IMG/VR virus record: IMGVR_UViG_3300008113_000010
Location: 1-64,000 of that record
DNA from: a virus
Strand: one strand, 5' to 3'
DNA: 64,000 nucleotides
Part shown: positions 34,900-60,805 of the stretch, in pieces
Numbering within the stretch: position 1 is the first letter of the stretch
How the letters are laid out: each line of letters opens with the position of its first letter
Made by a program: the position numbers and the translations under genes
The notes under the pieces: model-generated
What the model was told of the DNA's origin: nothing
The model's input: only the letters and a program-made list of their open reading frames with translations
The model's database searches: none

Positions 34900-37800
34900 A
34901 TGTCGTATCAGAATATTAATCAATACAATTTTAGAAGGTTAGGCCTATTACCTGTTAATGAAATAACGGATATTTGTCTTGCGTCAGACGAAAAAACCTT
35001 TGACCAAGAGGTAATTTTTTCACCATTATTAATTGGTGATGATGACGGTAATAGAATGCCTTTTAAATTTGAATTTAATTCGACAGGGACAACTGTTGCG
35101 ACAGTCTCTGCGGTAACATTTGATTTTGATACCATAGTATCCGAAAACTACTGGAACCCAGACAACCTCGACCCAAATTTTTGTCCATCAGCACAAACTC
35201 TTTGTGATGTTGGTCTTACGGGTATTGATAATGGTTTAGTAAAAAGAATGTCGGGTGAAACAATTGAGATAACGACTGGTCTATATACAAACATATCCGA
35301 CAAGTTTTCAAGATACAAATATGATAGGAGAATGAAACTTCATCCTATCACAGGTTTTACAACAACAAGTAACCGTCTTTGGAATGATGATTCATATACC
35401 TACGATTTATCGTATGACAGTTATGGTGATTTAGTAGGAAATTTTGCCAGATTGAATGGAGGATTTTACCAAGGATTCTATAAGTTACCAGGTTATACCT
35501 ATCAAGTATTCCCTCAAAGACCTCATTGGGGTTGGACAACTGAGGTTATGTTACGTTATAGATGGACTGGTGATACAAATGTAGGTTTGAATAAAAGATA
35601 CCCTGAAAATAAAGGGGCATTCTTCTACATGGGTGCGAGAGCCGAAAACAAATTTTATCATTATGCGGACGGACACCCAAAACAAGATACAGGTTACACA
35701 AGAGTTACATCTGGGTTGACTTGTATGCATACCTGCGAATGTCTACTGACGGGAATTACCGCTGAACATTCTTGTATGAAAGTTTATCAACAATCGGGAG
35801 GAACATCAACAAATTGCTCCTGTGGTTGTCCGTGTAATTGTGAAACAACTGTCAAGTATCCTGAGCTAGACCCACTATATGACGGAGTGTCAAATGCACT
35901 TTCTTTGAGATTGAGTGGGGACACTGGTAATCCAAGACTGTGTGTTAAAACATATAGAATTACAGGGGATTGTGAATTTACAGGTGCATGCCTGTCGGGT
36001 TTAACTTATGTTACTGGTGTTACAGTAAATGAATGGTGTTCAACAAGGGGTATCTTCCATGATTGTGAACAAACTGATTATTCAAAGCTTGAGCATTGGG
36101 TACAAATAGATGCTGTTTTTGAAAGAAATGAATGGTTTGATACTTGTGATTTATATGAAAAAGGGGGATTAGGTTTGATAACAGAAACAATCTATACCGC
36201 TACTCCTGCTCACAATAGTGTTAGTCTTATTGAACCTCCTCTAACCCATGAGAAAGATTATGACCCGGCAACAACTGAAATTGTAACTTTTAATGACAAT
36301 TGGACACTTGAACAAATATACCGTTTGGGTAAATTCAAGTTATACGTAAATGGTAGACTTTTCATGGTTGTTGAAAACTTTGAAGAGATTATTCCGAGAC
36401 TTTTAGACACACCAAGAGAAAAACAAATAGGCGTTTCTTATAACATTTCTGTTGGTGGTGGAACACAGGGATTACACGACAACCTTACATTCTCAGGAGG
36501 ATGTCCTGAAACTGTTGACGAAATAGTTTATCAACAAGACCCAGAGTGTTTAACAACACATGATTTGGACAACACAATCTATTCAGGTTTAACAACACAC
36601 ATCAAACTTGAAGAATATTTTGGTGGCAGTTTAATTGGGGACATTAGTGCATTTAGAATGTATACAGAGCCTTTAAATGCTTCACAGATTTGGCACAATT
36701 TCAAAATTCAAAAAGACAAATATGATTTGTTAGACCCTAAGTGTCCTGACTGTAGAGTTTTAATTTTACCAACACCTTCACCTACAGTAACTCCTACTGT
36801 AACACCAACACCTTCGATTACCGCTTCGGAAACACCAACCTTGACACCAACAAGTACGGAAACACCAACCGTTACGCCATCAGAAACCCCAACAAATACT
36901 CCTACACCTTCAATTACTGCAAGTCCTGGTCAAACTCCAACTGCAACTGAAACTCAAACACCTACACCTACCGAGACACCAACAAATACTCCTACAGAAA
37001 CATCAACTCCTACATCCACACCTTCGGAGACACCAACTGAAACTCCAACCGAAACACCTACCAACACTCCAACACCGACGAAATTGAGATTCGCGTTTAA
37101 TGTTTGTTCGGGAACTACTTTGATTGATGCATGTCAATGTGTTGATAATGGAATTATATATGGTGAGTTTGAGAACTTCGATGAGAATAATCAATTCTTT
37201 GATTCTCCTACGGGTTCAAACACGGTTAATCTTTCTGGATATTATTCATATAATAACATTGTGGTTGAACTTGATTCAGAGGGGTTCACAATTGGTAGTT
37301 TCTCAATATGTCCTACAACAACACCAACATCAACGGTTACACAGACTCCGAGTGAGACGCCAACACAAACTCCGAGTGAAACCCCAACAAATACCCCAAC
37401 TCAAACTGAGACACCAACACAAACTCCTACTGAGACTCCAACAGAAACCATAACACAAACTCCAACTAACACCGGAACTCCTACAGAGACTCCTACTAAC
37501 ACTCCGACTGAGACACCAACTCAAACTGAGACTCCAACAGAAACTCCTACTAACACTCCAACAGGAACCCCGATAGAAACCGTAACCCAAACACCAACAG
37601 AAACTCCTACTAACACTCCAACTGAAACTCCTACAAATACGCCAACTGAGTCTCCAACTCAAACACCTACTAATACTGTAACACCAACCATAACCGATAC
37701 TTCTACATCTACGCCTACTCCAACAATTACAGATACACCTACTAATACTCCTACTAATACTACAACTCCAACAATTACAGATACACCTACTAATACTCCT

Positions 37801-38829
37801 ACTAATACTACAACTCCAACAATCACAGATACACCTACTAATACTCCTACTAATACTGAAACTCCAACTCAAACACCAACACCTGATGTAACACCTAATC
37901 CTGTTTGTGATATTCAAATAACCTTACTACCAACACCTACTCCTTCGTCAACTCAGACACCAACACCAACAAATGAACCAAGTCCAACACCTACTGAAAC
38001 TCCAACTCAAACACCAACACCTGAGGTAACAAGTACTCCAACACAAACCAACACACCAGATGTAACACCTACACCAACTCAAGCGATTGTACCAAGTGAC
38101 CCAACCCTTGAAATTTATTATCAAGGTCAGACTGGTGACCAATTTAACCCTAATGCAACAAGTGGTTCGACATTTACACAATGGGAAGATTCATCTGCAA
38201 GTGCGCACAATGCCAACCCAATTGGTGGTGGAGCTGGTCCTTCTCCTGAATGGTGGAGCGGTGTTCAAAATGGTTTAGGAGGAGTTTGGTTCAATGGAAC
38301 CTCAGATGGTTTAAGTGTAAACCCTCTTGTTGACTTATCATCAAAATCAGGACAAACAATCATTATGGTTGTTAAGACACTCAATTCAACTAATACGGCT
38401 CAATATATTCAGGGAGGTTCTGATGGAAATACAGGGTTGGATGCAACATACATAAGACAAAGTGGTTCAACATACAACATTGCGGCTGGTGGTGGTTTTG
38501 CTACGGGTGGTGTTGTTAATACAAATCCACACATTATATCTTATGTGTTTAGTGGAACAGGTGTGACCAATCAAGATAAATTAAAGTTTTATATTGATGG
38601 TTCAGGACAAACCTTGACCTATATAACTAATGTTGGAACAACAACAAATGCACTTCTTGATTATGTGTTCTTGGGAGTATCCTATACGGGAGCACCCGCG
38701 GGAACCACACAGTTCTTCTATAATGGATTTTTGTTTGATGTGTTAGCTTACAGTAGAGCTTTATCTCCATCGGAGTTACAATCTGTCCAACAATATCTAT
38801 CAAATAAATGGAATATACCACTATTATAA
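34900..38829 (+). CDS. Giant mucin-like adhesin or tail fibre 1
   Basis: 1309 residues. Residues 1-620 form a large beta-rich region with Cys-rich inserts ([21 protein letters not shown]) and, near 560-600, a LamG-like strand set ([20 protein letters not shown]). Residues 625-727 and 804-1065 are long Thr/Pro/Asn/Glu repeats ([11 protein letters not shown]), resembling mucin stalks, separated by a 75-residue domain ([15 protein letters not shown]). Residues 1066-1309 form a concanavalin/LamG-like domain ([32 protein letters not shown]), which commonly binds glycans. I see a stalked receptor-binding protein. T4 tail-fibre homology is not evident. The neighbouring glycosyltransferases may modify the Thr-rich stalk. 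Confidence 0.8.
36771..38092 (+). repeat. Thr-Pro coding low-complexity repeats
   Basis: Degenerate ACN/CCN codon repeats encoding T-P-T-E-T-P-T-N units, interrupted at 37081-37315 by a folded domain. Such arrays change length by recombination and are prone to assembly error. Confidence 0.9.
37723..37866 (+). repeat. Three tandem 48-base units inside the Thr-Pro array
   Basis: Units at 37723-37770, 37771-37818 and 37819-37866 encode [16 protein letters not shown]; the first two are identical and the third differs at few positions. Recent duplication is the simplest explanation. Confidence 0.85.
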
Positions 38830-44675: not shown

Positions 44676-46341
44676 TATAACACTTGTAACAGGAATTTGG
44701 GACATCGGAAGAGGTGATTTAAGTGAAGGTTGGTCAAGACCTTTTCAACATTATTTGGATAAATTTGAAAAACTATTGGATGTCAATACCAATATGATTA
44801 TCTATGGTGATAAAAGTTTAGAGGAATTTGTTTTTTCAAAAAGGGATAAGTCAAATACACAATTTATTGTAAGAGACATGTCTTGGTTCAGGAATAATGA
44901 ATTTTTTGATAAAATCCAAAACATAAGAAATAACCCTGAGTGGTATAATCAAGTTGGTTGGTTAAAAGATTCAACTCAATCGAGATTGGAAAACTATAAC
45001 CCGTTGGTTATGTCAAAAGTTTATCTTTTGAATGATGCAAAAATAATGGATAGGTTTGATTCAGAATATCTGTTTTGGATTGACGGTGGGTTGACAAATA
45101 CTGTGCATCCTGGTTACTTTACACACGACAAGGTTTTGGATAAATTAGTAAAATATATCTCCAAATTCAGTTTCGTTTGTTTTCCTTATGAAGCTAATAC
45201 AGAAGTCCACGGGTTCAATTTCGATAAGATGAACTCTATGGCAGGTGCTAAAGTTGAGAGGGTTGCTAGAGGTGGGTTCTTCGGTGGACCAAAACACTCA
45301 ATATCAGAAATCAATTCAATATATTATTCTCTGATGAAAGAAACCTTGGATTCGGGATATATGGGAACTGAAGAATCTTTATTCAGCATAATGTGTTATA
45401 GACACTCCGAGTTAATAAATTATTTTGAAATAGAATCAAATGGTTTGTTAGGTAAATTTTTTGAGGATTTGAAGAACGATGATTTGAAAGTAAAAACAGA
45501 ATCAGTTCATAGACAAGTTTCAAATTTGGATATTAACAAAGTTGGTCTATATGTTATAACTTTCAATAGTCCAAACCAATTCAAAACGTTGATTAATTCA
45601 ATGTTAATGTATGATAAAGAATTCATACTTAAAACAAAAAAATTCTTACTTGATAACTCAAGTGATTTGTCAACAACAGAAGAGTATAAACAACTTTGTG
45701 ATGAATATAATTTTGAACATATCAAAAAAGATAACTTGGGTATTTGTGGAGGAAGGCAGTGGATTGCAGAACATTTTGAAGAAACAGATTTGGATTATTA
45801 TTTGTTTTTTGAAGATGACATGTTTTTTTATCCGAATGAAGGTTCGAAATGTAAAAACGGTTTTTCAAGATACGAACCAAATCTATTTTCAATCTCGATG
45901 CAAATAATGCAAAAGGAAAACTTTGATTTCTTAAAATTGAATTATTCTGAATTCTACGGAGATAACGGGACTCAATGGTCTTGGTATAATGTTCCTCAAG
46001 ATGTTAGGTCAAAGTATTGGCCCTTAAATCCAAGATTACCACAAATAGGATTGGACCCGAATGCGCCAAAGACAGAGTTCAAAAAAGTTCTTTCACACAG
46101 AAAAGTTCCATATGCGACAGGCGACATATATTATTGTAACTGGCCTCAAATTATTTCAAGACCAGGTAACAAAAAAATGTTTTTGGATGTTACTTGGGCA
46201 CATCCATTTGAACAAACGTGGATGAGTCATATGTATCAACTGACAAAAGAAGAAAAATTAAATCCTGGTTTACTTCTAATGACACCAACTGAACACGACC
46301 GTTTCGAACATTACAACAGAGAGTTACGTAAAGAGTCCTAA
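44668..46341 (+). CDS. Two-domain glycosyltransferase (HtrL/YibB-like plus GT2-like)
   Basis: 557 residues. Residues 1-275 resemble the previous protein (FWIDGGLTNTVHPG, RVARGGFFGGPKHS). Residues about 290-557 are GT-A-like (VGLYVITFNSPNQFKTLINS, LGICGGRQWIAEHF, YYLFFEDDMFFYP, where E-D-D is the probable metal site). Likely adds two sugars in sequence to one acceptor. Last of the plus-strand glycan genes. Confidence 0.65.
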   Translation: MSNITLVTGIWDIGRGDLSEGWSRPFQHYLDKFEKLLDVNTNMIIYGDKSLEEFVFSKRDKSNTQFIVRDMSWFRNNEFFDKIQNIRNNPEWYNQVGWLKDSTQSRLENYNPLVMSKVYLLNDAKIMDRFDSEYLFWIDGGLTNTVHPGYFTHDKVLDKLVKYISKFSFVCFPYEANTEVHGFNFDKMNSMAGAKVERVARGGFFGGPKHSISEINSIYYSLMKETLDSGYMGTEESLFSIMCYRHSELINYFEIESNGLLGKFFEDLKNDDLKVKTESVHRQVSNLDINKVGLYVITFNSPNQFKTLINSMLMYDKEFILKTKKFLLDNSSDLSTTEEYKQLCDEYNFEHIKKDNLGICGGRQWIAEHFEETDLDYYLFFEDDMFFYPNEGSKCKNGFSRYEPNLFSISMQIMQKENFDFLKLNYSEFYGDNGTQWSWYNVPQDVRSKYWPLNPRLPQIGLDPNAPKTEFKKVLSHRKVPYATGDIYYCNWPQIISRPGNKKMFLDVTWAHPFEQTWMSHMYQLTKEEKLNPGLLLMTPTEHDRFEHYNRELRKES

Positions 46342-46346
46342 CAATA

Positions 46347-46353
46347 TATTTAT
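46347..46353 (+). promoter_or_regulatory. Putative late promoter element TATTTAT
   Basis: TATTTATTG stands 4 bases before the ATG at 46358, implying a very short or absent leader. Confidence 0.4.
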
Positions 46354-46357
46354 TGTT

Positions 46358-46735
46358 ATGGAATTTTATATCAAACAAAATGCTACGTTACCAGTTTTGA
46401 AAATGCAAGTCGTAAAAGACGGTAGAGCGGGGTATATTCAGTTTATGGAAGCGTTGGAGGTTTCCACAATATATTTCACTATGATAGATTATGAGACTGG
46501 GATTCCAAAAATAGTTTCAGCCCCATGTGAAATAGTTAATCTCATTTTGGACCCTGGTGCTCCTGCAGAATACTACATTTATTTCAAATTTACTTCGAGA
46601 GATACTGATACGCCAGGAAGATACGAAGGACAATTCTTAATCAAAAATGATGAAGGAAATTTAATTCTTCCAATCAGAGAACAACTTTATATTAATATTC
46701 AACCAAGTTTCATTTCCGAAACTGCGTGTTGTTGA
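46358..46735 (+). CDS. Small beta-sandwich virion protein
   Basis: 125 residues (FYIKQNATLPVLKMQVVKDG; YYIYFKFTSRDTDTPGRYEG) in an immunoglobulin-like pattern, similar in style to N-terminal domains of baseplate upper proteins. Ends in ETACC with two Cys. Function unknown. Confidence 0.5.
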   Translation: MEFYIKQNATLPVLKMQVVKDGRAGYIQFMEALEVSTIYFTMIDYETGIPKIVSAPCEIVNLILDPGAPAEYYIYFKFTSRDTDTPGRYEGQFLIKNDEGNLILPIREQLYINIQPSFISETACC

Positions 46736-49877: not shown

Positions 49878-51005
49878 TTAGATTACGTAGATTTGACGAG
49901 GCATTGCTCTGAATTTCATTTGTTTATTTAAATTTTCAGCAATTTGTGCTTCTCTTTCCATAACCTTTTCAGGTCTTAGTCTTGTAAGCCATCCTTCAGC
50001 GCCCGTCAATTCTTCCATCAGTTTAGATTTTTCATCCTTGGCTTCAGTTAAAAGACTGGTGTAATCCATTGTAATTTCAGAATCAGGTGTCTTAAGATTC
50101 CCACTGTATTTACCTCTCACTCTTGCTAAGGTTTCTTTACAATATGCTGTAAACCATCTTCTTATCCATTGTTGTCCAGGAACATTGATATCTTCCCAAC
50201 TCAAGGATTCAAGAGGAACGTCAGTCGGTAGTTTGATAATGTCAGGATTGTTTTTAAGACAATCAGCTCTACTGTCTGGTGTTACATCATAATACCAATA
50301 CCAAACCGCTTTACCAGCATACATGTTGAAATTAGCCCAGTTAAATTTACCACCAGGGGTATTCATCAAGTGTATCAACTTTTTACCATCAGGTAATGCG
50401 GTAATCCTATATGTCATAGAACCACCGAGAATTCTATTCAAGATATTTGCTTCTTGCATTCTGATGAGGTAATCAAAACCAGACATCATAAAATAAGAAC
50501 CTTGGTATCCCATCTGAGCGTATCCTGCTTCATTGGCACCCAAACCTATACCACCGAATCCAAATCCACCAAGACCTCCAAGTCCGAATGCTGTCCAAGC
50601 CTGATTACTAAACCAAAGAAGTTCATTGACTTCTCTGTTGGCTGGTATTTCGTATGTCTGAACATTCTTTTCAATTATGAAATAATCTTTCTTCAAGACC
50701 CATGGTCCTACGGTCTGAAGTCCAACAATCTTAGAATACGAATATGCAAATTGTTGTTCGAAGTCCATTGTCCTTGTAACCAAAGCTCTGGCAACAGACT
50801 TTTCATTCATATTGAGGTTTACTAAGTTAACCCATTGTGAATCGATTAGCCATTGTAGAATATATTCTTCATAATCACCAATAGATAATTCCATTAGCGA
50901 GTCCATCATTTCGTCTTCTAATTCTACACTTCTTAAGGGTGCTCCCAACAAGTGTTTGACTCTTGTATAAATTTTACTTCTTTCTGGTTCTGGTAGTGCT
51001 GCCAT
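49878..51005 (-). CDS. Putative neck protein (gp13-like)
   Basis: 375 residues. VKHLLGAPLRSVELEDEMMD and the helices after it resemble the N-termini of T4-like neck/head-completion proteins. Residues 130-165 are a Gly/Phe-rich loop (FGLGGLGGFGFGGIGLG), and the rest is helical (EDINVPGQQWIRRWFTAYCK). In T4 the neck genes 13-15 sit next to the sheath gene; here other putative neck genes are on the opposite strand 4-6 kb away. Identity uncertain between gp13-like and another head-tail connector. Confidence 0.55.
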   Translation of the reverse strand: MAALPEPERSKIYTRVKHLLGAPLRSVELEDEMMDSLMELSIGDYEEYILQWLIDSQWVNLVNLNMNEKSVARALVTRTMDFEQQFAYSYSKIVGLQTVGPWVLKKDYFIIEKNVQTYEIPANREVNELLWFSNQAWTAFGLGGLGGFGFGGIGLGANEAGYAQMGYQGSYFMMSGFDYLIRMQEANILNRILGGSMTYRITALPDGKKLIHLMNTPGGKFNWANFNMYAGKAVWYWYYDVTPDSRADCLKNNPDIIKLPTDVPLESLSWEDINVPGQQWIRRWFTAYCKETLARVRGKYSGNLKTPDSEITMDYTSLLTEAKDEKSKLMEELTGAEGWLTRLRPEKVMEREAQIAENLNKQMKFRAMPRQIYVI

Positions 51006-51023: not shown

Positions 51024-52562
51024 TTATTCTATTTCGTGTAGTAGTGAACTAACGTTGAAGACATATTGGTTTTTATCACTTATAGGGTCGTTTTTGAATA
51101 TAAGTATCTTATTTGTTTTAGGATTAATAAAAATATACCAATCGACTTCGTAATGCTTAACATTTCCTGTATCCAAAAGTTTAACTCTGTCCTCGATTAT
51201 TGAAACATTAGAGAATGGTTTAACCTGTGCAGAAAACTTTTTTCCATCTAAAATCACATTTACATCAATACCTTTGAAGGCGTCTTGTTTTCCACCATGT
51301 GAACCAATCTTTTCAATTTTAGCATTACCATCAAAATAGTCTTCTATTTTTTTAATTGCGTTGTCTTCAGACTTTTGACCCCTATCCCAAAGTTTTTTAA
51401 GGACTTTGATTATATTGATAAAGTCTTCGTTATTCTCTGTAAAGATTTCGTTTCTGAAGTGGTCCAATGCTGAAATAAATCTAGTTGTTTCCTTTAGAGT
51501 TCTTTTTTCTTTTTTTGAAAAATCAAACTTCTTTTCTGACCTTCCAATTAATTCAATCTGTTTGTTTACTGCTTTTACCAATAAACAAAATGTATTGAAA
51601 TTTGTATTAAGGTTATTGAGTATAGACCTACCCTCGGGTGATTCTACACCATAAAATCCTGACATCTCTTCAGTATTACCCTCAACCCAAAAATGTGAAA
51701 ATACTTTTTTTAGAACGTAGGATACTCCCTCCTGATATCTTTTTTTGATTGCGTAATTATTAATCAAGTCTCTATAGAACAATACTTCTTTTGGATTACA
51801 GAATTGTGGTTCTTTTGATTCAGTAATTATTCCTTGAAATTTGTTCGACTCTAGTAGTTTTGTTTCAACTTTCATTTCATAAAGTTTCTGAACAAAATCC
51901 CAATTGACCACCTTCCAAAAATTTGAAATGTATTCGTCTCTCTTATTTCTGTATTTCAAATAGTAGGCGTGTTCCCAAAGGTCCAAACCTAATAGAGGGA
52001 AACCTCCACCTTCGATAACATTCATAAGTGGATTGTCTTGATTTGGTGTCGACATTATTTTCAAAGTATTTTTTGAGGTTAAAATTAACCATACCCAACC
52101 TGAGCCAAATCTATCCTTTGCAACAGTTTCAAATTTCTTTTTGAATAGATTGAAACTACCGTATTCTTTGGTAATTTTTTTATACAATTCCCCTGTTAAT
52201 TTTTTTGGTGTTGGAGACAACATATTCCAAAAAAGTGCGTGATTGAATGCTCCTCCAGCGTTGTTCCTTACTACTTGGTCGTATCGACTAATGTTTTTGA
52301 CAATTTTTTCTAAGTCTAAATCTCCATGTTTTTTCTTTGACAGGGCGGCATTTAATTTATCTACATATCCCTTATAGTGTTTGTTGTAGTGGAAATTCAT
52401 CGTTTCTGCGTCGATGAATCCTTTGAGGGCTGAATAAGAATAGGGTAGTTTTTCTATTCCAATTTTTTTCATTTCTGTAATCAACAATTGTTTTTCTGTT
52501 TCGATATGGTTTTCGGTAATTTGTTTTTCAATTTGTTGAATTCTTTCTTCTATTTTTTTCAT
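51024..52562 (-). CDS. Superoxide dismutase (Fe/Mn) fused to a nuclease-like domain
   Basis: 512 residues. Residues 36-230 are a complete Fe/Mn superoxide dismutase: ligands His58 (HYNKHYKGYV), His108 (NHALFW), Asp194 and His198 (LGLDLWEHAYY), second-shell Tyr66, and NNAGG with NQDNPLM (Gln175), the Mn-type arrangement. Catalyses 2 O2- to O2 and H2O2. Residues 1-35 are a helical extension. A linker (about 232-250) contains LLE|S and ITE|S. Residues 255-512 are an unrelated domain ending with GIDVNVILDGKKFSAQVKPF (Asp433, Gln446, Lys448), which resembles a PD-(D/E)XK nuclease core with Q-x-K. I know of no such fusion. It lies between neck and helicase genes. Confidence 0.82.
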   Translation of the reverse strand: MKKIEERIQQIEKQITENHIETEKQLLITEMKKIGIEKLPYSYSALKGFIDAETMNFHYNKHYKGYVDKLNAALSKKKHGDLDLEKIVKNISRYDQVVRNNAGGAFNHALFWNMLSPTPKKLTGELYKKITKEYGSFNLFKKKFETVAKDRFGSGWVWLILTSKNTLKIMSTPNQDNPLMNVIEGGGFPLLGLDLWEHAYYLKYRNKRDEYISNFWKVVNWDFVQKLYEMKVETKLLESNKFQGIITESKEPQFCNPKEVLFYRDLINNYAIKKRYQEGVSYVLKKVFSHFWVEGNTEEMSGFYGVESPEGRSILNNLNTNFNTFCLLVKAVNKQIELIGRSEKKFDFSKKEKRTLKETTRFISALDHFRNEIFTENNEDFINIIKVLKKLWDRGQKSEDNAIKKIEDYFDGNAKIEKIGSHGGKQDAFKGIDVNVILDGKKFSAQVKPFSNVSIIEDRVKLLDTGNVKHYEVDWYIFINPKTNKILIFKNDPISDKNQYVFNVSSLLHEIE

Positions 52563-52584
52563 ATTGGCGAGTTATTCGTTTTAT

Positions 52585-52591
52585 ATAAATA
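52585..52591 (-). promoter_or_regulatory. Putative late promoter element TATTTAT (SOD fusion)
   Basis: Reads TATTTATAT on the minus strand, 22 bases before the ATG at 52562, in the 59-base gap after the upstream gene. Confidence 0.5.
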
Positions 52592-52621
52592 ACTCAGAAT
52601 TGTTTTAAGGTTTGATTGACT

Positions 52622-52839: not shown

Positions 52840-54600
52840 TTAAGGGCGTAATTCGTTTATTCTTTTCAGAATTTCTTCGGCAGTGTCACCGATGTTTTGA
52901 TTGTCACCCATAACGGTCGCGATGACTTGCTTCTTATTATTAAGTATGTCATATATCGCGCCTTCGATTGTGTTTTCAAATATTGGATAATAGACTAACA
53001 CATTATTTTTTTGTCCAAATCTGTATGCCCTATCTTCAGCCTGAGAGTGGTCCGATGGTAGGAATGATAAGTCGTTCATAATAACCGCTTCTGCGGAAGT
53101 CAAAGTAAGTCCAACACCCGCAGCCTTTATGTTACCGACAAAAACTTTTATTTTATCATTTTCTTGAAATTGGTCAACACTAAATTGTCTATCTTGTTTT
53201 GTCATTGACCCATCAACTTTGACGGCAGTTTTTCCAAAATGTTGAACAATTTGATTTAGTGAATCTGTGAAGTTACAAAATATGATAACTTTTTTGTCCT
53301 GCTCTAATATGTTTTCGGCAAGTTCTATTGTTTGAGATATTTTCTCGTTGGCAATAACTTGTCTAACTTTTGTAAGTTTTGAAAATTGAACTGTTAACGA
53401 TTTTGACTCGTCGGGGTTTTTATCATACCAATTATAATATTCCCCCATGAGTTCTTCATAGTCCTTTGATTTGAGTCTGAGATAAACAGGTGTGATAATT
53501 TTTTCAGGTAAATCCAAAACGTCTTCTTTCAATCTCCTTAGGATTGTATTCGAGGTTCTATCCCTTAGTTCATCTAAATTAGACGCACCCATTACGTTCC
53601 ATACTTTCCTTGCTCCGACCTTGAATTGATATCCACTGCAATATCTTATGACGTAGGCCATCCAGTTCTTGGCAACAGGGGAATCTACGAGACTCAATAA
53701 ATTATAATAATCAATTGGTCTTGATGTCATCGGTGTTCCTGTTAATAACCAAAGTCTGTCAATTTTTTTTATGAAGTCGTTTATAAGTTTGGTTCTTTGT
53801 GCTTGAGCATTTTTGATATAGTGTGCTTCATCAATAACAACCAAATCAAAATTGGCTCTAAGAATTTGCGAATCATCTTTCTTTTTAGGGTCATGGAAGT
53901 TTTTTAGAATGTCGTAGTTTATGATTACAAAGTCGTGTTCTGTGCTAAAGTTTTTACCCTCCGCTATGTATATTGTCCTGTCAGAGTAATTTTCAATTTC
54001 ACGCTTCCAGTTTATCTTCAAAGTTGCGGGACATATGATTAAAACCTTTTTAGCCCCTGTTTCTAAGGCTGCAATTATAGTTGAGGTTGTTTTACCCAAA
54101 CCCATATCATCGGCCAAAATATATTTTTTATTTTCAACCAGTTTCTGAATGGATTCTTTTTGATGGTTTAACGGGGGTCTGTTTGAATATTTTTCAAAAT
54201 CGATGACAACGTCTTTAACGGTGTTGTCTTTTATTATAGAAGCCTTGGGTAACCAAAAATCATGTAGTTGTTCAGAGTCCCAAATCTTTCCCCAAATATG
54301 ATAAGCTTTGTCCTTCTCCGCTAGAAGTTTTTCAACCCAGACTTTTTGTGGGATTTCAGTATACATCTTGTCGTCAGCTAATTTCTGTGCAAAATATGCG
54401 TCTAAAATTACCCACTTTTTGGCAACTTTGGGTTGTTTGTCGTGGTTATTGATTATGTATTCTGATTGACTTCTTGTTGGGTAGAATTTTTTATTTACTT
54501 GGGATTTCCTTTGTAGTTCCAAGATATAATTGTTATACCCCTCATATTGTTCAAGAAGTGTTAGTGCTTTTGACTCGAGTGATATTTCTGATAAGCTCAT
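52840..54600 (-). CDS. SNF2-family helicase/ATPase
   Basis: 586 residues. Walker A is DDMGLGKTT (164-172), Ia ICPATLKINWKREI, II DEAH (257-260), III LWLLTGTPM, and the C-terminal half carries FCNFTDSLNQIV, the motif V region GVGLTLTSAEAVIMND and motif VI QAEDRAYRFGQ. This is a Swi2/Snf2-type dsDNA translocase; phage examples can act in repair, replication-fork remodelling or stripping proteins from DNA. The N-terminal 150 residues are a separate helical domain. The start codon overlaps the SET gene stop (ATGA), so the two are coupled. Confidence 0.9.
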   Translation of the reverse strand: MSLSEISLESKALTLLEQYEGYNNYILELQRKSQVNKKFYPTRSQSEYIINNHDKQPKVAKKWVILDAYFAQKLADDKMYTEIPQKVWVEKLLAEKDKAYHIWGKIWDSEQLHDFWLPKASIIKDNTVKDVVIDFEKYSNRPPLNHQKESIQKLVENKKYILADDMGLGKTTSTIIAALETGAKKVLIICPATLKINWKREIENYSDRTIYIAEGKNFSTEHDFVIINYDILKNFHDPKKKDDSQILRANFDLVVIDEAHYIKNAQAQRTKLINDFIKKIDRLWLLTGTPMTSRPIDYYNLLSLVDSPVAKNWMAYVIRYCSGYQFKVGARKVWNVMGASNLDELRDRTSNTILRRLKEDVLDLPEKIITPVYLRLKSKDYEELMGEYYNWYDKNPDESKSLTVQFSKLTKVRQVIANEKISQTIELAENILEQDKKVIIFCNFTDSLNQIVQHFGKTAVKVDGSMTKQDRQFSVDQFQENDKIKVFVGNIKAAGVGLTLTSAEAVIMNDLSFLPSDHSQAEDRAYRFGQKNNVLVYYPIFENTIEGAIYDILNNKKQVIATVMGDNQNIGDTAEEILKRINELRP

Positions 54601-54992
54601 TTTACTTCAATGTGACTTCTACCGTCAGACCAATAACTTTCATCACCATAATAAGTTGTGACTTCCTCATCTTTCGAAATTGGTTTTGTTGCTTTAAATC
54701 TTAAAATGTCTTTGTCCAAATCGTCTTCCCATGTTGCGTTATAGTTTTCGGAATGGTTATATAGTGAACCATATCCAAGAGCAATAACGTGGTTTTGCCA
54801 ATTCTCTCCTTTTGGAAATACAAATGTATAGTCAATTAAGGTGTAGTTTGTTTCTCCTCTTTGAACAGGTAATCTAAGAATCGGACACTCTTCAATAACC
54901 TCACCCTCGTTTATGTCTTCACATGCGAAAACCCCCCAACCGTGAATTGAACTTTTTCTTACTTGTAGTTTTGTATTTCTTTGAATTTCCAT
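54597..54992 (-). CDS. SET-domain protein, putative lysine methyltransferase
   Basis: 131 residues, a minimal SET domain. SSIHGWGVFACEDINEGEVI is the N-terminal SAM region, GYGSLYNHSENYNATW (73-88) is the N-H-S knot motif, and DEEVTTYYGDESYW has the catalytic Tyr. These enzymes transfer methyl groups to protein Lys. Other viral SET proteins (vSET of a chlorovirus) act on host histones; bacterial targets are unknown. It is translationally coupled to the SNF2 gene. The divergent neck genes start 58 bases upstream. Confidence 0.85.
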   Translation of the reverse strand: MEIQRNTKLQVRKSSIHGWGVFACEDINEGEVIEECPILRLPVQRGETNYTLIDYTFVFPKGENWQNHVIALGYGSLYNHSENYNATWEDDLDKDILRFKATKPISKDEEVTTYYGDESYWSDGRSHIEVK

Positions 54993-57580: not shown

Positions 57581-60500
57581 ATGGCAACAGCACAAGCAAA
57601 TCAAAAAGTTTATGTTTCACCTGGTGTTTATACCTCTGAAACGGATTTATCATTCGTGGCTCAGAGTGTGGGTGTTACTACGTTAGGTTTAGTTGGGGAA
57701 ACAATTAAGGGTCCCGCATTTGAACCGATTTTTATAACGAACTACGATGAATTTCAGGCATATTTCGGGGGGTCCGAGCCTGTAAAATTTGTTAATACAC
57801 AAATCCCTAAATATGAAGCGGCTTACATTGCCAAATCTTACTTACAACAATCTAATCAATTGTTCGTAACAAGAATCCTTGGTCTTTCAGGATACGACGC
57901 AGGTCCGTCTTGGAGTATCAAAGTTGTTGCTAATGTTGACCCAACTACGGTTGGTTTCAATCCTGCAACAGCTACCCCTTGGGTGGTAAACTTTACAGGA
58001 AGTTCGACAGGGAATACAATTTCTTTTCTTAATTCATTCCCTTCACAAATTAACAATTCGTTGACTTCACTTTATAGAATGAGTGACGGAAGCACATCTA
58101 ATATCCAATCCGATATTTTAGGGTTTGTGAAAGATGTTCTAACAACAAATTCATTGTCTTCAACAACTGCAAATGTATATGGTGCAATTCCAGAAAGTGA
58201 CTATTATAGTTTGTCTACAGGACGTAACTTAGTCAACGTATATAATTGTGATAATATAAATTATCCTCTTAATGATTTAACAAGTGGTTTGAATGATTCT
58301 TGGTTCTATGCAAACTTTAACAACTATTCCAATGATAACTATTCAGGTTATTCTATGGACTATATTGTTTCATCAATAGCAACAGGAGCTTCTAATAGTT
58401 TCTCGGGTAGTATTTCTGGTAATGTATATACATGGTCAGGAACTGCTTTCAGTGAATATAATAACATGGTTGTAGCGACAATCCGTTCAAGAGGTATATC
58501 ACTTTTTGAAAATAGTGCAGCAAGTAATGCTCACGGTCCAATTTACGAGGTAAACTCGGGTGGAACTGTTTCAGGATTGAGTGCATTAACTATGGTTTGT
58601 TCGGGACAATACTCAGGGGTTACAATTAATCCTTACGAAACCTTCTTGTTATCAGGTATAACGAAAGATAATGATAATTTCAGTTTTGAAGTTTCATTGT
58701 CGGCACTTTCTTCTAAGTTTATAACTAAAGTATTAGGGACGGACAATTTCGGAAAATCTAGACAGGAGGTTCCTGTATTCGTTGAGGAAGTTTATCCAGC
58801 TTCTTTGGCTTATGCTTATAATCAAAGTTATATCCGTGGATTAGATTGTCAGTTGATTGGTTTACCTGGAGCAAGAACAGAAGACCCAAGTTCAATTGCT
58901 TATAACGTAGAAAAATATCAATCACCTATGACACCATTCTTGGTTTCAGAGTTGAGAGGTAATAAAGTTTATAAATTATTCAGATTCATATCAATCTCTG
59001 ATGGAGATGCAGCTAACGTTGAAGTAAAAGTTTCAATCGCGAACTTGTCTTTTAACAACATGACATTTGATGTTTTAGTTAGAAATTTCTTTGACACCGA
59101 TGCGAACCCTGTTGTGATTGAGAAATTCACAAATTGCACTATGGACCCAGCTTCAAATAACTTTGTGGCTAAAAAGATTGGTTCTTCTAATGGTGAGTTT
59201 GCTTTAATATCAAAATATGTGATGGTTGAAATGTCTGAAGAGGCACCAATAGATGCACTTCCTTGTGGATTCTACGGATACACTCAAAGAGAATATGCAT
59301 CTGTTAGTAATCCATCTCCTGTTCCAAAGTTCAAAACAAAATACTACTTCCCTGGTGAAGTTATCTATAACCCACCTTTCGGTGCAGCAACTGGAGGTGA
59401 TAATTTAGTCGAGTCACCTGGTGATATAGTGAGAAGAAGTTACTTAGGTTTTTCAACTCAGTTCGGAATTGACGAATCATTCCTTTCTTATAAAGGTAAA
59501 CAAAATCCACCTTCTTGGGTCATTGCTCCAATCCCTGTCGAGGGTGCTACTTGGAACTACTTAAGTAAAGGTTTCCATATGGACTCAGGTGCAACTGTAG
59601 TTACTATTGGTAATGTTTATCAAACAAGTGGAACACCGGCATTTGAGTGTGGGGTTGCTGATTTCAGATTTGACCCAGAAACACAAGAAAATCCTTACTA
59701 CTTTATCTACTCAAGAAAATACACAGTATGTTTCGCTGGTGGGTTTGATGGTTGGGACATTTATAGAGAATATAGAACAAACCAAGATAGATTCCAATTG
59801 GGAGCATCAGGTTACTTGGCGGGTGCATCTGCATCATCAAGATATCCTTCAGCAACTGGTCAAGGTTTATTTAAGAGAATTGTGGTTGAAAACAATACAC
59901 AAGATTTTGCTAACACTGACTATTATGCTTATCTATTAGGTATTCTTACGTTCAGAAATCCTGAAGCTACTAATATCAATGTATTTGCAACTTCAAGTAT
60001 CGATTATTACAATAACTCAAACCTTGTTGAAGAAGCTATCGACATGATTCAGTTCCAAAGGGCTGATTCTGTTTATATAGCAACGACACCAGATTATAAC
60101 ATGTATACTCCTGATGGAACAAACTCTTTGGATATTATTTATCCTCAGGAAGCGGTTGATAACTTAGATAACACAGGAATTGATTCTAACTATACATCTA
60201 CTTACTATCCTTGGATTTTGGTGAGAGATACAGTAAACAATACACAGATTTACTTACCACCAACAGGTGAAGTTTGTAGAAATTTAGCTCTTACAGATAA
60301 CATATCCTTCCCATGGTTCGCGTCAGCGGGTTACACAAGAGGTCTTGTAAATTCAATAAAGGCAAGATTGAAGTTGACTCAAGAGGATAGAGATACTCTT
60401 TATCAAGGAAGAATCAACCCTATTGCAACTTTTGCGGACGTTGGAACTGTAATTTGGGGTAACAAAACCCTACAGGTTGCGGATACCGCTCTAAACAGAC

Positions 60501-60805
60501 TTAACGTAAGAAGATTGTTACTTCAGGCTCGTAAGTTAATTTCAGCGGTGGCTGTAAGATTACTGTTCGAACAGAACGACCAAGTAGTAAGACAACAATT
60601 CTTGGATAGTGTGAACCCAATCCTTGATTCAATTAGAAGAGATAGAGGTCTATATGATTTCCGTGTGACAGTATCTTCTTCACCTGAAGATTTAGACAGA
60701 AACACATTAACAGGAAAGATTTACTTAAAACCAACGAAGGCTCTCGAATTCATAGATATTGAATTCTTTATTACACCAACAGGAGCTTCGTTCGAAAATA
60801 TCTAA
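57581..60805 (+). CDS. gp18: Tail sheath protein (gp18-like)
   Basis: 1074 residues. The N-terminus VSPGVYTSETDLSFVAQSVG and the C-terminal region (YQGRINPIATFADVGTVIWG; LNRLNVRRLLLQARKLISAV; RNTLTGKIYLKPTKALEFID) are classical contractile sheath motifs. T4 gp18 has 659 residues; the excess lies in the middle (about 110-420), a Ser/Asn/Gly-rich, beta-type insertion that probably forms outward-facing domains. The gene is followed by a terminator. ATG 57581 is preceded by only A/T bases. Confidence 0.94.
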   Translation: MATAQANQKVYVSPGVYTSETDLSFVAQSVGVTTLGLVGETIKGPAFEPIFITNYDEFQAYFGGSEPVKFVNTQIPKYEAAYIAKSYLQQSNQLFVTRILGLSGYDAGPSWSIKVVANVDPTTVGFNPATATPWVVNFTGSSTGNTISFLNSFPSQINNSLTSLYRMSDGSTSNIQSDILGFVKDVLTTNSLSSTTANVYGAIPESDYYSLSTGRNLVNVYNCDNINYPLNDLTSGLNDSWFYANFNNYSNDNYSGYSMDYIVSSIATGASNSFSGSISGNVYTWSGTAFSEYNNMVVATIRSRGISLFENSAASNAHGPIYEVNSGGTVSGLSALTMVCSGQYSGVTINPYETFLLSGITKDNDNFSFEVSLSALSSKFITKVLGTDNFGKSRQEVPVFVEEVYPASLAYAYNQSYIRGLDCQLIGLPGARTEDPSSIAYNVEKYQSPMTPFLVSELRGNKVYKLFRFISISDGDAANVEVKVSIANLSFNNMTFDVLVRNFFDTDANPVVIEKFTNCTMDPASNNFVAKKIGSSNGEFALISKYVMVEMSEEAPIDALPCGFYGYTQREYASVSNPSPVPKFKTKYYFPGEVIYNPPFGAATGGDNLVESPGDIVRRSYLGFSTQFGIDESFLSYKGKQNPPSWVIAPIPVEGATWNYLSKGFHMDSGATVVTIGNVYQTSGTPAFECGVADFRFDPETQENPYYFIYSRKYTVCFAGGFDGWDIYREYRTNQDRFQLGASGYLAGASASSRYPSATGQGLFKRIVVENNTQDFANTDYYAYLLGILTFRNPEATNINVFATSSIDYYNNSNLVEEAIDMIQFQRADSVYIATTPDYNMYTPDGTNSLDIIYPQEAVDNLDNTGIDSNYTSTYYPWILVRDTVNNTQIYLPPTGEVCRNLALTDNISFPWFASAGYTRGLVNSIKARLKLTQEDRDTLYQGRINPIATFADVGTVIWGNKTLQVADTALNRLNVRRLLLQARKLISAVAVRLLFEQNDQVVRQQFLDSVNPILDSIRRDRGLYDFRVTVSSSPEDLDRNTLTGKIYLKPTKALEFIDIEFFITPTGASFENI

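Follow-up and report, generated by a model that had tools for sequence, protein, structure and literature searches.

Fusion of a Mn-type superoxide dismutase with a PD-(D/E)XK-like domain in a clade of T4-like phages

A gene of the phage DNA analysed here encodes a Mn-type superoxide dismutase (SOD) joined in a single reading frame to a domain resembling the PD-(D/E)XK nucleases. This fusion is real and conserved across a clade of T4-like phages. The window, i.e. the whole stretch of 64,000 nucleotides under study (positions 1 to 64,000 of IMG/VR record IMGVR_UViG_3300008113_000010), encodes the portal, major capsid and tail sheath proteins of a T4-like phage. The capsid protein of the window shares 41.6-45.3% identity, over 53-56% of the length, with those of an uncultured 484-kb phage, of the Microcystis phage Mel-JY01 and of the Flavobacterium phage immuto. 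Records of the clade reach 317-326 kb, and 132 matching stretches were detected in one collection, some of them being the same virus in several assemblies. The fusion gene is organised as follows.

51024..52562, minus strand: SOD-nuclease fusion gene, 512 amino acids plus stop, ATG start, without internal stop
52458..52562, minus strand: N-terminal helix, residues 1-35 (predicted helix 2-31; weakly conserved)
51873..52457, minus strand: Mn-type superoxide dismutase domain, residues 36-230, SodFM1-like (Pfam, PDB relatives, fold)
51798..51872, minus strand: linker, residues 231-255, the least constrained part
51381..51797, minus strand: conserved helical region, residues 256-394 (about), from the predicted structure, with the patches EMSGFYG and NNLNTNFN
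51027..51380, minus strand: PD-(D/E)XK-like nuclease domain, residues 395-512 (VIA structural matches)

Such a fusion had been proposed in an earlier note on this DNA, together with the possibility of a gene-joining error near 51.85 kb. Comparison with other phages bears out the former and excludes the latter. SOD and C-terminal half share one frame in all 80 loci retained (the best 80 of 126 relatives of the C-terminal half), and 239 of the 240 C-half frames fetched also contain the SOD (73 different sequences, many contigs having been fetched repeatedly). An artefactual joining of two adjacent genes was rejected on these counts. The sole exception, L290, in which SOD and nuclease are split over two frames, is either a copy with a broken frame or an error of assembly. 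The frame is 512 codons long in 77 cases and 517 in four, counting the window and the best 80 of at least 595 whole-protein matches in IMG/VR, a number that stems partly from SOD patterns and is not a tally of fusions. The protein is identical in the first ten of these 80 loci, which probably represent a single virus assembled several times.

Three scans with the C-terminal half or the nuclease domain gave overlapping sets of 126, 108 and 132 relatives. The best 80 of each were kept, 46, 28 and 52 relatives falling outside. The third scan (132 relatives) returned largely the same contigs as the earlier ones, and the presence of the SOD was scored for the first two. In the kept loci of these two scans no nuclease half without a SOD was detected, the frame-broken copy excepted; the patterns used were family-specific, so that other contexts of the nuclease half may exist. 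In cellular genomes 64 pattern matches to the C-terminal half included no true relative, and a C-half profile found nothing in the phages immuto, Mel-JY01, LR756508 and T4 (4/4, at E up to 1). Nine matches in a phage collection (H1-H9) were left out. Their records are labelled Staphylococcus, Enterococcus, Escherichia, Salmonella or Listeria phages or Salmonella strains, and they look like host DNA.

The assignment of residues 36-230 to a Mn-type SOD, made in the earlier note from the residue pattern, is confirmed by profile searches. Pfam Sod_Fe_N (PF00081) matches residues 36-116 (E 1e-22, 80.8 bits vs a cut-off of 27) and Sod_Fe_C (PF02777) residues 123-226 (E 1.4e-39, 134.7 bits vs a cut-off of 20.9); in NCBIfam the SOD half alone was matched. 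The nearest solved relatives by sequence are MnSODs of Sphingobacterium (6gsc, E 1.4e-60). The SOD fold is present in the predicted structure, too (VIA Z 29.1, rmsd 1.7, 204 residues aligned to 5a9g), the alignment fed to the structure predictor having contained 23 bacterial SODs. Metal ligands, second shell and fold are those of the SodFM1 MnSOD of Sphingobacterium sp. T2 (5a9g/6gsc). Conservation was scored in 52 viral fusion sequences, i.e. 54 sequences of at least 500 amino acids and under 98.5% mutually identical, minus L051 and L140 because of their differing lengths.

52389..52391, minus strand: metal ligand H58, 52/52
52239..52241, minus strand: metal ligand H108, 52/52
52038..52040, minus strand: Q175, the C-terminal-type water-coordinating Gln (role according to PMC10172142), 52/52
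51981..51983, minus strand: metal ligand D194, 52/52 (residue D-2 is G192)
51969..51971, minus strand: metal ligand H198, 52/52

The second-shell residue Y66 and G192 at position D-2 are invariant in all 52 sequences as well. The four ligands and Tyr66 had been placed correctly from the sequence. E197, H62 and Y201, residues of the dimer interface, are likewise invariant in 52/52. As every ligand and second-shell residue is kept, a dead scaffold is not expected. The earlier suggestion of a SOD fold reused merely as a scaffold is weakened by this, and a scaffold role alongside SOD activity is possible. For the Mn-type reading, Q175 and G192 agree with the rules given for SodFM enzymes in PMC10172142. 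According to this source, SodFM1/5 carry the C-terminal water-coordinating Gln and such enzymes were Mn-preferring in 21 of 27 cases; Gly or Ala at D-2 accompanies Mn preference, peroxide resistance was seen for Mn-preferring enzymes, the SodFM1 members studied so far are dimers, and Bacteroidota carry mainly SodFM1.

The nearest cellular SODs (best 80 of 267 loci) belong mostly to Bacteroidota and are 43-58% identical in the best segment. The 86 matching frames in these 80 loci measure 200-310 amino acids, compared with 512 for the fusion, and leave no room for a C-terminal half. Six Bacteroidota loci (L167, L185, L194, L217, L231 and L234) contain two SOD frames each within about 1 kb. Phage-borne Fe/Mn SODs with all four ligands are also found in Vibrio phage 2.275.O and Pseudomonas Wroclawvirus (e.g. 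Callisto), but these jumbo-phage enzymes are stand-alone proteins of about 180-190 amino acids, 32-33% identical to the fusion SOD, and their very long branches make their position in the tree unsure. In a quick tree of 15 fusion SODs and cellular SODs, the fusions were set apart by a branch with support 100; in the first tree, which included two of the very long jumbo-phage branches, the fusion group was joined to these with support 79. In the tree without these two, 43 of 98 inner branches are open, and no bacterial group stands out as the nearest. The tree fits a single acquisition, without pointing to a donor.

For the C-terminal half, profile searches gave no such answer. The half of the window protein showed nothing above cut-off in Pfam, and twelve C-terminal halves scanned singly yielded 14 weak families, none of them PD-(D/E)XK, the best being an unrelated GTPase family (E 0.0085, in one of the twelve). 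Hjc (PF01870) was not among the Pfam families matched by the window protein or by these twelve halves. PHROGs gave weak values of E 0.053 and 0.14, nothing being significant, and NCBIfam no match. A C-half profile compared with the sequences of solved structures reached a best E of 0.47, with 4 weak hits and no nuclease among them, and no relative was found for the helical region of residues 256-394 (about). Thus, of the families expected from the earlier note, Sod_Fe_N and Sod_Fe_C were detected in the N-terminal half, and no PD-(D/E)XK member-family profile was significant in Pfam, NCBIfam, PHROGs or PADLOC.

Two structure predictions, made from 27 and 77 sequences, agree on the elements of this half: a helical region, followed by a helix (379-409) and three strands (414-422, 431-438 and 441-449). 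The earlier note had called the whole of residues 255-512 nuclease-like. This stands for a PD-(D/E)XK-like domain of residues 395-512, whereas residues 256-394 form a separate helical region. The stretch GIDVNV...FSAQVKP, taken in that note for a PD-(D/E)XK core, is the centre of the arrangement E399-x33-D433-x12-Q446-x-K448 within a predicted alpha-beta-beta-beta unit. The order acidic, acidic, (D/E/Q)xK in helix, strand and strand is present, as in PD-(D/E)XK nucleases, the sequence similarity to which is not significant.

51366..51368, minus strand: E399, presumed first catalytic residue, in helix 379-409, 52/52
51264..51266, minus strand: D433, presumed catalytic Asp, in the second strand, 52/52
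51219..51227, minus strand: Q446-V-K448, presumed (D/E/Q)xK motif, in the third strand, Q446 and K448 52/52

H422, G423, K425, D427 and G431 are likewise invariant in 52/52, the loop 423-429 beside D427 being modelled with low confidence. In the VIA comparison, for which the first model was used (its poorly modelled SOD half leaves room for C-half matches), core folds like that of residues 395-512 were those of the SPARDA nuclease subunit (Z 6.9), archaeal Holliday-junction resolvase (6.4; Hjc/Hje), NhoI (6.2), I-Ssp6803I (6.0), DpnI (5.2) and also RecU. To our knowledge, none of these nucleases carries a SOD. Nucleases, SPARDA complexes or resolvases make up 25 of the first 26 rows, with Z of 4.0-6.9, the exception being MepB in row 18; rows 14 and 25, titled PBP-related factor A, were counted as resolvases because row 17 names this protein Holliday junction resolvase. 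The nuclease reading is supported by the invariant E-D-QxK residues, the alpha-beta-beta-beta core and these structural matches. It is weakened by the best Z of 6.9, as VIA warns that values below 8 may mean a mere common arrangement, by the lack of a significant nuclease profile and by Foldseek, in which the best nuclease match was weaker than in VIA (I-Ssp6803I, E 0.07, probability 0.99). Judging from the models, residues 395-512 very probably adopt a PD-(D/E)XK fold.

The mechanism we prefer, with slightly less than even confidence, is that of a DNA-directed, dimeric MnSOD with nuclease domains for binding or processing DNA. The SOD half would, with high probability, be active, Mn-loaded, peroxide-resistant and dimeric in the cytoplasm of the infected host, probably a member of the Bacteroidota. 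The SOD dimer would hold two PD-(D/E)XK domains, which are likely to bind or cut DNA. Cutting would probably proceed via E399, D433 and Q446-x-K448 together with a divalent metal, like in a junction resolvase or a restriction-type nuclease, and a neighbouring SNF2 gene may supply a translocase. More tentatively, the joint might place superoxide removal at the phage DNA in order to shield the DNA and nearby enzymes during replication, processing and packaging, one protein then being both a DNA-directed SOD and a DNA-processing enzyme. With a pI of 6.3 the nuclease domain is slightly acidic, which does not favour DNA binding by this part; the SOD part (pI 9.5) and the helical part (9.1) are basic. 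Neither a catalase nor a ferritin/Dps-type protein was found in four records (possibly fragments), nor a peroxiredoxin above cut-off, with one AhpC match below it. This lack of a gene for removing the H2O2 made by the SOD counts against the preferred mechanism, though the host has such enzymes of its own.

By analogy, a SOD held at a nucleic-acid machine, as proposed for the fusion, has a precedent in PAP9/FSD2 and PAP4/FSD3 of the plastid RNA polymerase complex. PAP9 (FSD2) sits on the plastid RNA polymerase, hypothetically via an added C-terminal part (PMC8278866). However, PAP9 is a FeSOD whose added part is an unfolded stretch of 34 residues without a nuclease, whereas the phage protein is Mn-type and carries a nuclease-like domain.

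The fusion gene has the following neighbours.

49878..51005, minus strand: downstream neighbour, head-completion/neck-like protein (phrog_211, E 1e-9)
52840..54600, minus strand: upstream neighbour, SNF2 helicase (Pfam PF00176, E 4.4e-30)

Alternatively it might be that the nuclease is the main function and that the SOD serves as a dimerisation platform and for self-protection. The protein would then be a Holliday-junction or branch resolvase of the phage, doing the job of T4 endonuclease VII before packaging together with the SNF2 helicase. The helicase gene lies upstream in 79 of the 80 kept loci (the exception, L067, has 1.8 kb of upstream sequence), the best structural matches include RecU and the archaeal Holliday-junction resolvases, and Endonuclease VII, RuvC and Hjc profiles (E up to 1) had no match in the four possibly fragmentary records. 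This silence is not absence, however, as the Endonuclease VII search was positive in only one of 14 control genomes, and parts of the records may be missing. This alternative also leaves the kept catalytic residues of the SOD unexplained. We consider it a live reading, but a rather unlikely one. Adjoining the SNF2 gene we observed a gene for a SET-domain protein of 131 amino acids (54597-54992, minus strand; Pfam E 5e-13), copies of which occur in many, not all loci. The SET domain is a fold of the lysine-methyltransferase type.

A further possibility, raised in the earlier note, is a virion protein that is packaged and delivered with the DNA. The gene following the fusion stop at a distance of 17-74 nt in all 80 kept loci is the head-completion/neck-like one, the protein of which (49878..51005) resembles the 'putative head completion protein' of Flavobacterium phage immuto. 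Furthermore, the fusion gene is preceded by a motif, TATTTAT, that is common to the leaders of the portal, sheath and neck genes.

52569..52595, minus strand: leader element of the fusion gene, inverted repeat GAGTTAT...ATAACTC around TATTTAT (52585-52591)

Of the 35 TATTTAT sites on the coding strand of the window, 17 are found in the 100 nt that precede a gene starting on that strand. Such zones cover 4.8% of strand positions, so the motif is enriched there, the genes for this count having been hand-picked from the reading frames and not taken from a gene finder. The sites include positions 738, 4916, 39774, 46761, 51017 (minus strand), 52591 (minus strand) and 57541. Counted in distinct leaders, TATTTAT is present in 36/36 of the fusion, 41/41 of the neck, 31/31 of the sheath, 29/41 of the DNA polymerase and 1/43 of the SNF2 genes. 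Among the leaders examined, few carry its reverse complement, apart from those of the SET gene (23/27), whose leader is a region in common with the divergent gene 55051, and, to a lesser degree, those of SNF2 (8/43). From its distribution, TATTTAT is probably a phage-specific promoter or leader element; we take it to be the reverse complement of the T4 late promoter core. Its position suggests that the fusion gene has a promoter or translation signal of its own, of the kind found at virion genes and the polymerase. Late expression cannot be derived from the motif alone, which we rejected as proof because the leaders of the DNA polymerase carry it, too. This, the about equal nearness of replication genes, and hhalign probabilities under 1% for the DNA end protector gp2 and the head-closure protein gp4 of T4 against the C-terminal half (single T4 sequences, hence a weak comparison) speak against a virion protein, which we regard as unlikely.

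The inverted repeat itself was analysed in aligned fusion leaders, in all 30 of which TTATTTAT is present. In the stem 92.4% of cells are paired, whereas shuffles give 85.9% and sliding no more than 52.7%, and paired changes from GAG/CTC to GGA/TCC occur. The covariation score was 0.264 vs 0.161 in shuffles, none of 500 shuffles being as high. Two of the five stem measures compared did not stand out from shuffles, namely the pairs changed on both sides (3, equalled by 94/500) and the pair types (7, equalled by 454/500). On visual inspection, L311, L262, L253 and L151 show a broken repeat. Rfam at gathering scores matched nothing within the window.

SNF2 helicase and nuclease could also constitute an offensive or defensive DNA-degradation module directed against host or competitor DNA, the SOD protecting the module or the cell. 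Pairs of SNF2 and nuclease recur in defence, and the SNF2 protein of the window matches ZorD of PADLOC ('SWI2/SNF2 helicase, Mrr-like nuclease', E 9e-47) and also DpdE and DrmD; SPARDA complexes are the best structural matches of the nuclease domain. But any SNF2 helicase would be expected to give such matches, and phrog_62, a family of phage helicases, fits better (E 8e-114). The fusion protein itself fits no PADLOC model, and its gene has its own leader motif, which is nearly missing ahead of SNF2. A degradation module is likewise a live reading, but an improbable one.

The protein might also be an ordinary auxiliary SOD with a C-terminal half that is a degenerate or merely DNA-binding relic. 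Stand-alone SODs do occur in other jumbo phages, and evolution is faster in the nuclease than in the SOD half, the median dN/dS being 0.029 for the SOD, 0.07 for the helical region, 0.117 for the nuclease domain, 0.194 for the N-terminal helix and 0.375 for the linker. These values derive from pairs with dS of 0.05-1.0, hence from the closer ones (69 of 1326 pairs for the SOD, 65 helical, 86 nuclease, 391 linker and 487 N-terminal helix). However, the value of the nuclease domain is far from neutral and its presumed catalytic residues E399, D433, Q446 and K448 never vary, which makes a relic doubtful. The low dN/dS of the SOD, helical and nuclease parts compared with the linker indicates that both halves are maintained under purifying selection, as expected of a working two-part enzyme. 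The pairwise distances of the two halves are correlated (0.63; none of 2000 permutations as high), which any pair of adjacent, co-inherited genes would show. Very improbable, finally, is a redox-coupled nuclease in which SOD and nuclease sites of one dimer interact, DNA cleavage being gated or marked by superoxide or by the H2O2 that arises from it; if true, the phage would possess an enzyme sensing or exploiting oxidative chemistry at DNA, e.g. in host defence or lysis.

The statement in the earlier note that no such fusion was known is weakened by a database entry. The BFVD/UniProt entry A0A6J5L953 ('superoxide dismutase [uncultured Caudovirales phage]') comprises 501 amino acids, is 44% identical to the fusion and aligns in Foldseek over 489-492 columns (E 1.9e-25 and 2.9e-39). 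From its length and this span in the structure-library listing we infer that it shares the two-part layout. The architecture thus appears to have been deposited already, labelled only as superoxide dismutase. A literature search by title or abstract start, supplements being outside its range, found no paper on a SOD-nuclease fusion, and passages of PMC9875498, PMC9405923, PMC9723777 and PMC4908380 do not deal with one. What appears to be undescribed is the joint of a known enzyme and a known nuclease fold. A larger protein of 1113 amino acids from an uncultured marine phage (A0A8D9CCA0, BFVD) gave alignments of 561-594 columns with our models (13-16% identical; E 1.3e-11 and 1.3e-9) and is possibly a remote relative of the fusion.

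Should both halves prove active, these large phages would have an antioxidant enzyme built into a DNA-acting one. A protein of this kind would offer a genetic handle on two questions: does a virus have to control superoxide around its DNA during replication, and does tethering to that DNA make an antioxidant enzyme more effective? The matter is testable, because the two active sites can be disabled separately.

Some further genes of the window are worth recording. Positions 34900-38829 encode a protein of 1309 amino acids with PHROG matches of unknown function alone (best E 1.9e-16) and no Pfam family. The tail sheath protein (57581-60805) is 1074 amino acids long, the best sheath-family stretch being C-terminal (about 857-1072) and the remainder mostly unmatched. 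In the leader of gene 46358 (46339-46360) a hairpin, TAACAATA-TATT-TATTGTTA in the window, has the start codon at its end. Of the 14 leaders listed, 12 have a hairpin so placed, in others than the window in a longer form CATAACA...TGTTATG, and it looks as if translation of this gene might be controlled by a hairpin at its start codon.
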